A stretch of DNA of 64,000 nt from Malaciobacter molluscorum LMG 25693 (GTDB taxonomy: Bacteria; Campylobacterota; Campylobacteria; Campylobacterales; Arcobacteraceae), in NCBI RefSeq assembly GCF_003544935.1, contig NZ_CP032098.1, positions 2,480,001-2,544,000 of the forward strand, given 5' to 3'. The notes under the pieces were generated by a model that saw only the letters and a program-made list of their open reading frames with translations, did no database searches and was not told the origin of the DNA. Both the position numbers and the translations under genes were made by a program. This document shows positions 6,726 through 12,087 of this stretch, in pieces; positions within the stretch are counted from its first letter, which is position 1; each line of letters starts with the position of its first letter.

Positions 6726-7442
6726 TTAAAATGGCCATATTTTTTGTAATAACTTTGTTCCCCATGGAGTATGCATTACATCTTTTTCTTCTCCATTTTT
6801 GACATATAATATTTTTAAATTAGCAATTTGGGAAGAAGAAATACTATTATCTGGTGTAATATCATAAGGTCTAATTACTCCTGAAATAATTAATTCTTGT
6901 TTTTGTCCATCAATTAATAATTGCTTATTACCTTTTATATAATAATTACCATTTTGATAAGTTTGTTCTATTATAGCAGAAATAGTAGTAGAAAAAGATT
7001 CATCTAGAGTTGTCTTTGCTTCACCATTATTGGTACTATTATTTGTTGAACCAAAACTTACACCAGCAACTTTATTAAATTTATTTGCAATATTCCCAAC
7101 TGTTCCACCAAGAACATTACCTGTCATTGGAGTTAAAAGACCTCCACCTAAATTTGTTTTATCTTCTCTTGTTAATTCTCTTTTATTTTTGGTATCAGAA
7201 GATAAAGATTCATCAATTCTTATTTGAATAATATCTCCAATTTGCAAATCTTTTTTATCTGCAAATAAAGAAGGCCCCTTTCTTGTATACAAAGAACCCT
7301 TTTTTCTTACAACCTGTTGAGCAGGAGGTTTAGGAAGTTGCATTTGAGGTTTAGTAAAATCTAGTTTTTCTTCTGTTGCAATACAACCTGACAAAAGTAT
7401 TGAAACTATAAAACTTATAATTATTAAATTAATTATTTTCAT
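6726..7442 (-). CDS. flgH: Flagellar L-ring protein FlgH (lipoprotein)
   Basis: FlgH builds the outer-membrane L ring through which the flagellar rod turns. The 238-residue product begins with a lipoprotein signal whose lipobox is LLSGC, so Cys near residue 20 is the lipidated residue. Family blocks are SLYTRKGPSLFADKKDLQIGDIIQIRIDESLSS (L-ring N-terminal consensus), the GG-rich stretch, and the C-terminal VSGVIRPYDITPDNSISSSQIANLKILY (cut here: ISGVIRP and SQIANL are diagnostic). Its ATG lies 14 bases inside the upstream gene. The end lies close to the flgK promoter region. Confidence 0.94.
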   Translation of the reverse strand: MKIINLIIISFIVSILLSGCIATEEKLDFTKPQMQLPKPPAQQVVRKKGSLYTRKGPSLFADKKDLQIGDIIQIRIDESLSSDTKNKRELTREDKTNLGGGLLTPMTGNVLGGTVGNIANKFNKVAGVSFGSTNNSTNNGEAKTTLDESFSTTISAIIEQTYQNGNYYIKGNKQLLIDGQKQELIISGVIRPYDITPDNSISSSQIANLKILYVKNGEEKDVMHTPWGTKLLQKIWPF

Positions 7443-7860
7443 CGTATTTGCTCTCTACAACATATTTTAAGTCAATTGCTATTTTTATATCATCAATCGT
7501 TCTTTTTACTAAGGCCATAGTGCCATATCTTACAACTAAAGCATCAATATTAGTATTTGGATCACAAACAATCACAATTTTATTAGCAATAATTTTTACA
7601 TTACGTACATTTAATTGTCCAACTAAATCAACTGCATTTTCAACTTCTCTATAAATTATCTTTTCTATTTTATTTTTTTTATTCTCTTTAGCAGCCTGTT
7701 GTGTTTGTTGCATTTCATTTAATTGTTCTTGCTTTGCATCTTGTGCAAATTTATCACTCATATGAAAATAGTAAGCTATAAACATAAATATCACAGCAAT
7801 AATTGATATTACTTTTATTATCAATCTTTTCTTTGATGTTCTTTTCACTGCTATTATCAT
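7429..7860 (-). CDS. Unknown single-pass membrane protein in the flagellar operon
   Basis: I do not recognise the family. The 143-residue protein has a basic start (MIIAVKRTSKKRLIIK), one membrane helix (about 17-32, IISIIAVIFMFIAYYF-like) and a Gln/Lys-rich coiled stretch (about 40-66). It ends in a small alpha/beta domain with LVGQLNVRNVKIIANKIVIV and TMALVKRTIDDIKIAIDLKY. The arrangement predicts an inner-membrane anchor with a periplasmic domain. It overlaps flgH by 14 bases and follows fliL by 15, so it is embedded in the flagellar operon. A part in stator, export or L/P-ring assembly is plausible but not shown by any motif. Confidence 0.75.
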   Translation of the reverse strand: MIIAVKRTSKKRLIIKVISIIAVIFMFIAYYFHMSDKFAQDAKQEQLNEMQQTQQAAKENKKNKIEKIIYREVENAVDLVGQLNVRNVKIIANKIVIVCDPNTNIDALVVRYGTMALVKRTIDDIKIAIDLKYVVESKYDENN

Positions 7861-9307: not shown

Positions 9308-9574
9308 TTATTTCCCAAAAACTAACATTATATCCCATAAATCATGAGCATAAGTTACAATATGATCACCCATCCAAGGTAATGAAATCAATACAAAAAT
9401 AGAAACAAATATAACTTTAGGAACAAAGGATAAAGAAGCATCTGAAACTTGTGTTACAGCTTGAAATATTGATATTAATAGACCAATAACCATACTTACT
9501 ATAAGAGAAGGCATTCCTAATATCAAAATAATTTTTACTGTATTTTCAGCAATCCCAATTAAATCCATTTCCAT
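9308..9574 (-). CDS. fliQ: Flagellar type III export protein FliQ
   Basis: FliQ is one of the small membrane subunits of the FliPQR export gate. The 88-residue product has two membrane helices (about 15-37 and 52-72). The conserved IAENTVKIILILGMPSLIVSMVIGL matches FliQ, and the VSDASLSFVPKV part matches its inter-helix loop (q..t..f.pk). Length is exactly typical. It lies four bases after the acidic-protein gene and one base before fliJ. fliP and fliR are not in this window. Confidence 0.93.
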   Translation of the reverse strand: MEMDLIGIAENTVKIILILGMPSLIVSMVIGLLISIFQAVTQVSDASLSFVPKVIFVSIFVLISLPWMGDHIVTYAHDLWDIMLVFGK

Positions 9575-9577
9575 ATA

Positions 9578-10939
9578 TTAATCTTTTATTTTTATTGTAA
9601 TCTCCAAAGTTTTATTATTTAGTAATTTTTGTACTAAAGCAACAATATCTTGAGTATTAGAACTATTTAAATTCAATGTTTCAGTATTACTTGAAGTATT
9701 ATTAAAACTTGGCTTTATTTCTTCAATATTTGGTAAAGAGGTCGTTGGCTTTATATCTTCATTTAATCCCTCTAATGCAGATAAAACATCATTTTCATTT
9801 AAACTATCTAATTCAGAAAACTCATTATTTGCCATCTCTTCTCCTTTTGAAACTATTGTCTCTTTTATATTTTCTATTTCTTTTTTACTTATTATATCAT
9901 TATTTTCTTCATTATTCTTTTCGTCAGGAAGATTCATTAAATCATCTAAGTCAGATAGATCATCTTCTGAAGCATTTTCTTCATCTAAAGCATTTAATAA
10001 TTCATCTTGTATATCTTCTGAACTTTGTTCTTTAATTTCTGTATTATCTTCATCTGTATATCCATCAATATCCATATTTAACAAATCATCTAAATCTGTT
10101 AAATCTTCTTCTTTATCAATATTATCAATTAATTTATCATCTGATACATTTAATAAATCATCCAAATCAGACATATCCTGAATCTTTTCATTATCATAAG
10201 CTTCTTCATCTAAATTATCAGGCATATTCATTAAATCATTTTTTGATGAATCATTATTTTGTTTTTCTAAATTTTCTAGACTATTAAAAAAATCATCATC
10301 AGTTTCATCTTCATCATATTTTTTTGAAGCTTCAATTTCAGCATAAGTTAAAGGTCTATCATTTTCATTTATATATTCATCAAAATAATCTTTTGATGAT
10401 GTTGCAATATCACTATCTTGCATTTTAGGAGTTTGATCAAAAAAGTCATTCATTTCATCATTTGAATCAATATGAGTTAAAAGTGAACTCAATTCATCAT
10501 CAAGAGGTTCAAAATCATCATCACTACCTTCATAAGCTTCATCTACAATATTTCTAATAGACTCTTCGACTTCATCATCAACAATATCTTTATTAGAAGT
10601 TGAAGAATCAATTTTGTTTATAATATGTGTAGTTAATTCTTCTAAAGAATCAACTGACATATCACCAATTCCATGGTCTAAAAGATATTCTTGTTCAATT
10701 CCATCTTTTGGTCTTAAAAATTTAAATTTTGAATTTATTGATTTTTTCTTTATAATTTTTGAATCATCTATTAAATAAATATCTTCAGGGTTCTCTTCTA
10801 TTGCATCTTTTAATTCATCTATATTATCTAATTGGATGATAGAACTACTTTCATCTAATCTAAACTTAATATTGGCATGTTCTAGAAGATTATTTATTTC
10901 TTCATTAAAGTCTGAGTTTCCATAGATATAAATATTCAA
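9578..10939 (-). CDS. Acidic, disordered protein with DLDDLL repeats, flagellar operon
   Basis: Not recognised. The product of about 453 residues has a small N-terminal alpha/beta-looking domain (about 1-60) and then a long, strongly acidic low-complexity region. That region contains repeated short motifs: DLDDLLNVSDD, DLDDLLNMDIDG, DLDDLMNLPDE, and weaker NDLMNMP and DELLNAL copies. A final helix reads DIVALVQKLLNNKTLEITIKIKD. No signal peptide or membrane segment is visible, so it is probably cytosolic. It starts the minus-strand flagellar run (fliQ follows after three bases). No ATG is available: TTG codons occur at 10945 and 10939. I chose 10939 because AGGG ends six bases upstream, a normal spacing, whereas it would directly touch the TTG at 10945. 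Confidence 0.7.
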   Translation of the reverse strand: MNIYIYGNSDFNEEINNLLEHANIKFRLDESSSIIQLDNIDELKDAIEENPEDIYLIDDSKIIKKKSINSKFKFLRPKDGIEQEYLLDHGIGDMSVDSLEELTTHIINKIDSSTSNKDIVDDEVEESIRNIVDEAYEGSDDDFEPLDDELSSLLTHIDSNDEMNDFFDQTPKMQDSDIATSSKDYFDEYINENDRPLTYAEIEASKKYDEDETDDDFFNSLENLEKQNNDSSKNDLMNMPDNLDEEAYDNEKIQDMSDLDDLLNVSDDKLIDNIDKEEDLTDLDDLLNMDIDGYTDEDNTEIKEQSSEDIQDELLNALDEENASEDDLSDLDDLMNLPDEKNNEENNDIISKKEIENIKETIVSKGEEMANNEFSELDSLNENDVLSALEGLNEDIKPTTSLPNIEEIKPSFNNTSSNTETLNLNSSNTQDIVALVQKLLNNKTLEITIKIKD

Positions 10940-11031
10940 ATACAACCCTAAAATAATTTTTGTATAGATTATACCTACATTTTATAAAATTTTAGATAAA
11001 ATTAATTGAAATTGAATAAGGGTATATTTCT

Positions 11032-12087
11032 TTGAAAAACATCATTGCTATTTTACTATTTTTAACATCAACAATTTTTGCACAAACAATAAAAGATATT
11101 TCTAATGTTGTTGGGATTAGAGATAATCAATTAATCGGTTATGGTCTAGTTGTAGGACTTGCAGGAACAGGAGATAAAAGCCAATTTACAATGCAATCTT
11201 TGCAAAACTTACTTAGAAACTCTTATATAAAAATTCCTACTTCATCAATAAAATCAAAAAATATCGCTGCTGTTATGGTAACTTCTAAATTACCAGCTTT
11301 TTCAAGACAAGGTGATAAAATAAAAATCAAAGTTTCAGCAATTGGAGATGCAAAATCAATTGATCATGGACAACTTCTTTTAACTCAATTAAAAGGAGTA
11401 GATGGAAATGTCTATGCATTAGCACAAGGGACAATTATTGCTGATTTAAATAACTTAACAACTGGTTTTATATATGATGGAGCAACTATTGAAAATGAAG
11501 TTGATTATGATTTAAAAGATGAAAGTATGATCACATTAAGTTTAAAAACAAGTAGTGCTAAACATGCTTTTGCAATTGAAAATAAAATAAATAAAAGATT
11601 TGGGAAAAAATTAGCAATAGCAGAAGATACAAGAACAATTAATGTAAAAAAACCAAAAGATATGTCAATGGTTAAATTTTTATCTATTGTTCAAAACATA
11701 AAACTTGATGATTCATTTAAGAAAAAGATCATTATTGATATAAATAGAGAAATGATTATTGCAGGTGCTGATATAACAATTGATCCTGTAACAATTTCAA
11801 GAGATAATTTTACTATAAGAGTAAAAAAATCTCCTTTATCAGAGGAAGAATGGAATGATAATGCTAAAAATAGAGGTGTAGATATAGGAGATGATGTAAA
11901 AATTGGAAATAAACCTATTGTTAATATAGATAATGCATTAATTAATACAAAAAGTGCTCCAACAGTTTCAGACTTAATGAGAGCAATGAAAATCATGAAA
12001 TTACCAATTACAGATATAATTGAAACCATAAAACTAATTAAAGATTTAGGTTCAATTGATGCTGAAGTTGAAATAAGAGGACAATAA
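11032..12087 (+). CDS. flgI: Flagellar P-ring protein FlgI
   Basis: FlgI forms the periplasmic P ring around the rod. The 351-residue product starts from a TTG codon with AAGGG upstream and has a Sec signal peptide ending near FAQTIKD. Diagnostic blocks are NQLIGYGLVVGLAGTGDKS (NqLvGyGLVvGL.GTGD), KNIAAVMVTSKLPAFSRQGDKI (NvAaV.vta.LPpF...G..id) and TVSDLMRAMKIMKLPITDIIETIK near the end. Length is normal. It is transcribed divergently from the minus-strand flagellar genes across an 86-base AT-rich spacer. It overlaps fliM by one base (TAATG). Confidence 0.95.
   Translation: MKNIIAILLFLTSTIFAQTIKDISNVVGIRDNQLIGYGLVVGLAGTGDKSQFTMQSLQNLLRNSYIKIPTSSIKSKNIAAVMVTSKLPAFSRQGDKIKIKVSAIGDAKSIDHGQLLLTQLKGVDGNVYALAQGTIIADLNNLTTGFIYDGATIENEVDYDLKDESMITLSLKTSSAKHAFAIENKINKRFGKKLAIAEDTRTINVKKPKDMSMVKFLSIVQNIKLDDSFKKKIIIDINREMIIAGADITIDPVTISRDNFTIRVKKSPLSEEEWNDNAKNRGVDIGDDVKIGNKPIVNIDNALINTKSAPTVSDLMRAMKIMKLPITDIIETIKLIKDLGSIDAEVEIRGQ

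Follow-up and report, generated by a model that had tools for sequence, protein, structure and literature searches.

A candidate ChePep-like adaptor with a probable nested C-terminal product, encoded beside fliQ in Arcobacteraceae

The question raised by this locus is what a long, acidic and unannotated gene contributes to the flagellar operon in which it lies. In the window (the whole 64-kb stretch of DNA that we analyzed), an open minus-strand frame runs to a stop at 9578 next to fliQ, and the preliminary description of it proposed a disordered chain with repeated docking motifs that might act as a scaffold or spatial regulator of flagellar assembly. The reading that we favor, with a probability of about 0.57, is that the gene encodes a flagellar and chemotaxis adaptor of the Arcobacteraceae that resembles ChePep and is made as two products. 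The features on which the argument depends are these:

9578..10939, minus strand: long open reading frame, 453 aa, with receiver-like domain, acidic middle and C-module; TTG or GTG at the aligned start of 80 loci
10583..10939, minus strand: predicted N-terminal receiver-like domain, residues 1-119, from conservation, AlphaFold2 and structure alignment
9836..10582, minus strand: acidic middle, variable in length, probably disordered, holding three DLDDL(L/M)N copies; from composition and homologue lengths
10148..10168, minus strand: DLDDLLN copy 1, not conserved in most homologues
10076..10096, minus strand: DLDDLLN copy 2
9932..9952, minus strand: DLDDLMN copy 3
9841..9846, minus strand: putative internal Shine-Dalgarno (SD) sequence AAGGAG, 5 bases 5' of the internal ATG, duplex energy -8.0
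9578..9835, minus strand: nested short open reading frame, 85 aa, from the internal ATG, with C-box and C-tail (ChePep-like C-module); a separate gene in six genomes
9308..9574, minus strand: fliQ, next gene downstream (Pfam Bac_export_3, 9.9e-25)
11032..12087, plus strand: flgI, divergent neighbor, followed by fliM at 12087

The frame is real, as first described, and its start is conserved: the gene-calling program had begun it at a TTG at 10945, which is missing from four of the five genus relatives read, and the TTG at 10939 is the start kept in homologues. At the aligned position across 80 loci (duplicates included) the codon is TTG in 77, GTG in three and ATG in none. The TTG had been taken as a sign of low-level expression; the codon itself stands, but it says little about expression level because flgI also starts mostly with TTG (47 of 52 scored loci, with six further loci unclear). 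The acidic gene and flgI (11032) form a divergent pair in which both TTG starts are conserved. Adjacency to fliQ and fliJ was likewise borne out, the latter by a weak Pfam match (0.021), and the gene sits in a run with fliQ, fliJ and fliL that diverges from flgI-fliM. The statement that it has no recognised family is correct for Pfam and NCBIfam, which assigned the acidic protein to none; N-domain homologues run individually gave just scattered sub-threshold matches to families, and an acidic fliQ-linked gene was named nowhere in the results of our literature searches. An Rfam scan of the 64-kb window gave no match, a promoter scan found 16 candidates against 18.1 expected, and no terminators were found. 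An unnamed gene of the same operon is a 143-aa ORF at 7429-7860 (minus strand), between the fliL and flgH genes; a stretch close to its start is hydrophobic, and it matches no Pfam family above the cut-off.

A profile of the N-terminal domain matched 32 of 60 relatives, all within the window's own family (f1, which we read as Arcobacteraceae). Across 248 genomes of the order it matched 21 f1 genomes and two others at E 0.008 and 0.0099; these two matches fall in ORFs whose translations read as protease-like and glycosyltransferase-like, and we took them as chance. The acidic-gene family thus turned up nowhere outside the window's own family, where it tracks FliM: among 37 f1 genomes, the gene is present in 32 of the 33 that are FliM-positive and in none of the four that are FliM-negative (G012, G024, G028 and G029). 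In G033, the sole FliM-positive genome without it, fliM is on a contig of 4015 bases whose end probably falls close to the expected beginning of the acidic gene. In 31 of the 32 genomes one contig carries both, the gene starting no more than 1.3 kb from the fliM match; in G032 the two lie on different contigs. The 42 homologue loci include Malaciobacter, Poseidonibacter, Halarcobacter, Aliarcobacter and Arcobacter; some records are named only Campylobacteraceae or Campylobacterales, and one (L182) is named Sulfurospirillum.

Comparison of these homologues gives a layout different from the more than 400 acidic residues first reported, with an acidic part of about 250 central residues flanked by conserved modules, namely residues 1-119 and the last 85. 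The AlphaFold2 model of residues 1-122 has a pLDDT of 85 and a pTM of 0.78, and when Foldseek candidates were aligned to it with VIA-align 2, 48 of the 50 entries listed were receivers or response regulators, by title or name, the other two of those 50 being mycobacterial complex I. The best of these matches reached Z 9.4, with 2.6 Å over 100 residues, where Z 7-8 is common for such models; a Foldseek search with the N-domain model gave no match at E <= 0.001 (best 0.1). The catalytic positions of a receiver were placed by the layout of CheY. Strand 1 is followed by Y6-G7 in place of the acidic pair, and strand 3 by Asp58, an almost invariant residue, as judged from conservation and the model. 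With that acidic pair missing, a phosphorylatable CheY-like receiver was rejected, and the domain, provided that it is a receiver at all, would be a pseudo-receiver. An analogy for how such a degenerate receiver could act is FrzS of Myxococcus, which belongs to a different family and whose pseudo-receiver reportedly controls polar placement without phosphorylation chemistry (PMC1974792).

The middle region is rich in acidic residues (D+E 36%, K+R 7%, 250 residues scored), and its length varies widely among homologues. Opposite it lies an antisense 108-aa ORF (9709-10035, plus strand), which looks like a shadow of the Asp and Glu codons. The three DLDDL(L/M)N copies begin at residues 258, 282 and 330 of the 453-aa form and exceed what shuffling produces (mean 0.0 in 20000 middle-region shuffles). 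Their conservation is another matter: in the middle regions of the 35 homologues longer than 230 aa from the 42-locus set (a first set of 30 loci was not counted in this way), the strict motif occurs in one and a loose version in six, two genus relatives among them. Thus the motifs described at the outset exist, but multivalent docking through them is unsupported as a conserved function because nearly all tested homologues lack the motif, and we rejected it.

The C-terminal module consists of a box, 'FSELDSLNENDVLSALEGL', a variable linker and a tail, 'LLNNKTLEITIKIKD', as defined by homologue conservation; its low-confidence model (pLDDT 65) places helices over the box and within the tail. 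The module opens with an ATG at 9835, preceded by AAAGGAGAAGAG. Among 56 distinct fused genes, the mean SD energy is -7.3 at this ATG and -3.7 at the long-form start, and for 178 other in-frame ATGs of the fused genes the mean is -1.3, with 2% at or below -5. The C-module ATG has an SD energy of -5 or lower in 51 of the 56 distinct fused genes with Met at the box, and it is the best-placed ATG by this measure in 49 of the 52 that have another in-frame ATG, four genes having none. The exceptions are L022, which has no SD, and L047, L049, L050 and L185, in which it is weaker (above -5); in two distinct fused genes, L030 and L189, the box is without a Met. Because the residues KGE largely force an SD sequence and the genome is AT-rich, the DNA signal alone is no proof of selection for initiation.

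A more telling observation comes from six distinct genomes (eight of the 80 loci: L028, the same genome as L193; L029, the same as L195; L194; L196; L197; L051), in which the N-part and the C-module are separate adjacent ORFs. Three of these pairs share one frame divided by a stop and three lie in different frames, and every split C-part has its own ATG and SD-like stretch. We consider this comparative evidence stronger than SD energy as an argument for the internal start. Since the module carries its own SD and ATG and is a separate gene in six genomes, the fused genes probably yield a long and a short product. In a FlgI tree with 18 outgroup rows, five of the six split lineages, those that could be placed, fall at the base of the family (L029 has no FlgI), and the fused genes form a main clade (97/93, 51 rows) and occur once more, apart from it, in L026, which is sister to the split L197. 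Several branches in this tree are long, and a further tree was built without outgroups. In the trees 'fused' is the default label; L023 is truncated where its contig ends, and its assignment depends on another contig fragment from that genome. The simplest reading of these comparisons is a two-gene ancestry followed by at least two fusions.

Is the module found in a protein of known function? ChePep has a receiver domain, and the locus directly upstream of gmk is presumably, from gene order, the ChePep locus (HP0322 'poly E-rich protein'; Cj1178c). We searched 248 genomes of the order with a C-module profile of 22 of 30 loci (those caught by pattern), built before the gmk loci were known and with the place not preselected. 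Besides 21 family genomes it picked up seven places elsewhere, with E 2.8e-4 to 8e-3 on the one-genome scale; two or three such matches are expected by chance. At six of these seven the match is an acidic ORF immediately preceding gmk, after which come tatA-like and argS-like ORFs (neighbors assigned by reading of translations); four of the six have receiver-like starts and two are truncated where the contig ends. The remaining match is to a chemoreceptor-like ORF.

Profile comparison supports this match. With hhalign and no realignment, the C-module aligned to gmk-linked C-termini with prob 83, E 8.7e-6 and score 30.6 over 74 columns; none of 60 column shuffles scored as high, three other profiles gave 9-13 and a reversed profile 18.0. 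A realigned comparison gave prob 86 and kept just 24 box columns, so that the box is the firm part; the tail alone reached prob 32 over 20 columns, again with none of 60 shuffles as high. A C-box pattern, written after the sequences were seen, is present in 33 of the 35 long window-gene homologues. Of the 26 gmk-linked tails from outside the family, 16 contain it (shuffle mean 0.04) and ten do not; none of the 32 from inside the family does. Among the gmk-linked genes, only in L121 and L076 was an ATG close to the box seen to follow a strong SD. For these comparisons a second C-profile comprised the window and 38 of the 42 loci. The gmk-linked set outside the family was taken without L127 in all profiles and counts, its N-profile without the N-truncated L075, L076, L120, L121 and L126 and the FliM-negative L136 and L138, and its C-profile without L122, L136 and L138. 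Inside the family the gmk-linked profiles used 27 of 32 sequences (without L097, L106, L140, L151 and L154), and the box count used all 32.

The N-terminal domain gives a different result. Sequence homology between the window N-domain and gmk-linked receivers was looked for by profile comparison and not found: hhalign gave prob 1.8-2.3 (two of 60 shuffles as high at 2.3) and 0.2 (46 of 60), and the KPFLP that is invariant in 19 gmk-linked rows is absent from the consensus of the window family. Nor does the acidic window gene lie directly upstream of gmk, a place held in its own genome by a different, ChePep-like gene (L199:1109-1900, GTG start, 263 aa) with a PFLP motif and no C-box. Such a gmk-linked ORF was found in 32 of the 35 family loci read (none at L139, L141 and L153), and its receiver matches gmk-linked receivers elsewhere in the order at E 1.3e-18. 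The gmk-linked gene, rather than the acidic fliQ-linked gene, is therefore the syntenic ChePep relative in this family. It shares its genomes with the acidic gene, and the two proteins have a short C-tail match (prob 53, 20 columns), but it is 254-292 aa long in 29 of 32 cases, is weakly acidic, keeps PFLP and lacks the C-box.

Judged through the gmk-linked ORFs, the acidic gene shares with ChePep an acidic middle, a C-module of box and tail, occurrence in Campylobacterota, a link to flagella and, if the fold prediction is right, a receiver-like N-domain. It differs in that a gmk-linked ChePep-like gene coexists with it and that its C-module may be synthesized by itself or has a gene of its own. 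We do not file it as ChePep because synteny fails and homology of the receiver sequence was not detected; the best reading from sequence comparison is that it works like ChePep more than that it is ChePep. Published work identifies HP0322 (PMC3561388) and CJJ81176_1193 of C. jejuni (PMC5438104, PMC9665402) as ChePep, describes the protein as confined to Campylobacterota, important for polar CheZ and, when lost, associated with frequent reversals (PMC11237671, PMC9665402, PMC7750401), and reports its polar localization and mutual dependence with CheZ (PMC5447363, PMC11237671). Since the tail of the acidic protein resembles that of ChePep, a role in the control of swimming is more probable than that of a featureless scaffold. 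The spatial regulator of the preliminary description may be close to correct, in keeping with the ChePep-like architecture and the tracking of FliM, but its motif argument fails. The N-domain, the conserved C-module with its internal start and the relation to ChePep had escaped that description.

We suggest that the two products act as follows. The weak TTG site would direct synthesis of the 453-aa protein, in which a flexible acidic tether joins a degenerate receiver to the C-terminal module, and the stronger in-frame internal site would yield the module alone, as an 85-aa protein. The module would bind a partner handled by ChePep, most likely the CheZ phosphatase or else a polar flagellar component; the receiver would position the tethered module, and the free module would compete with or saturate its binding, with the ratio of long to short product presumably set by the two sites. 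In Arcobacter the F3 chemosensory class was reportedly lost and a CheY-CheZ pair kept inside a flagellar locus (PMC9321776), and the acidic gene may supply a ChePep-like C-module, both tethered and free, to this retained pair. In another flagellar cluster of the window's own genome (L198:4012-5522), close to rod, fliF and fliG genes, a cheY-like gene adjoins an ORF of 367 aa that matches CheZ weakly; this candidate was not reported when it was scanned directly against Pfam at E <= 0.001. Because Pfam CheZ is weak in the order, matching 20 of 60 genomes with none above the cut-off, CheZ is of no use as a co-occurrence test. As a mode of expression, the arrangement has an analogue in SctQ/HrcQ/Spa33 of the T3SS sorting platform, where a single frame yields the complete protein as well as a C-terminal one that is initiated internally (PMC8553256, PMC4832279); we claim no sequence or domain relation to the acidic gene.

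How this arrangement arose can be outlined only tentatively, and the history that follows is less probable than the function just proposed. ChePep may have been disassembled when flagella and chemotaxis were remodeled in the Arcobacter lineage, leaving the receiver at gmk without the box and the C-module free-standing in the fliQ operon, with a new degenerate receiver ahead of it. The two would later have been fused at least twice, the module keeping its own start, to give tethered and free forms in a ratio set by the two initiation sites.

The alternatives differ in which of these elements they discard. A single long product, an acidic ChePep-like adaptor whose internal SD and ATG are incidental to a conserved 'KGExM' peptide, would explain why the SD survives synonymous recoding of the residues upstream of the ATG (mean energy -7.1, so that this control does not discriminate) and why Met or SD is missing from a few homologues. 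It fits poorly with the six genomes in which the C-part stands behind a stop or in another frame with its own ATG and SD-like stretch, with the basal position of those split lineages that could be placed, and with residues between the conserved Gly and Met that differ in kind and number; we consider it unlikely. We give equally little weight to a scaffold or export regulator of flagellar assembly, in which the acidic chain would dock proteins of the export apparatus or the C-ring, independently of chemotaxis. The run with fliQ, fliJ and fliL, the proximity to fliM and the co-occurrence with FliM all suit such a role, but context is a weak guide where Arcobacter flagellar loci reportedly mix genes of different assembly classes (PMC9321776), the DLDDLL motifs that would do the docking are not conserved, and the C-module match points to ChePep.

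Less probable still is that the C-box is a FliM/FliN-like EIDALL peptide competing for CheY or FlhG. The likeness between the start of FliM, MAEFLSQDEIDALL, and the start of the module, MANNEFSELDSLNENDVLSAL, is superficial, and the profile match of the box to FliM N-termini failed (hhalign prob 2.6, with nine of 60 shuffles as high), so a FliM-like identity is not supported.

The ChePep-like dual-product reading would account for an unannotated gene present in nearly every FliM-positive genome of the family. The regulator ChePep, through which CheZ is placed at the pole, is poorly understood, and lineages with the C-module separate or nested offer a natural dissection of a ChePep-like module. 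The surprise in the finding lies in the likely nesting of two products, which would be a flagellar parallel to the nested SctQ products of the injectisome.

A minor observation concerns the gmk-linked ORF in eight FliM-negative genomes. It is short in L097, L136 and L138 and was not found in L137, L139 and L141; it was also not found in the FliM-positive L135 and L153. It is kept in the FliM-negative L140 and L128, the latter genome being 88% complete. The gmk-linked ORF may decay on loss of flagella.
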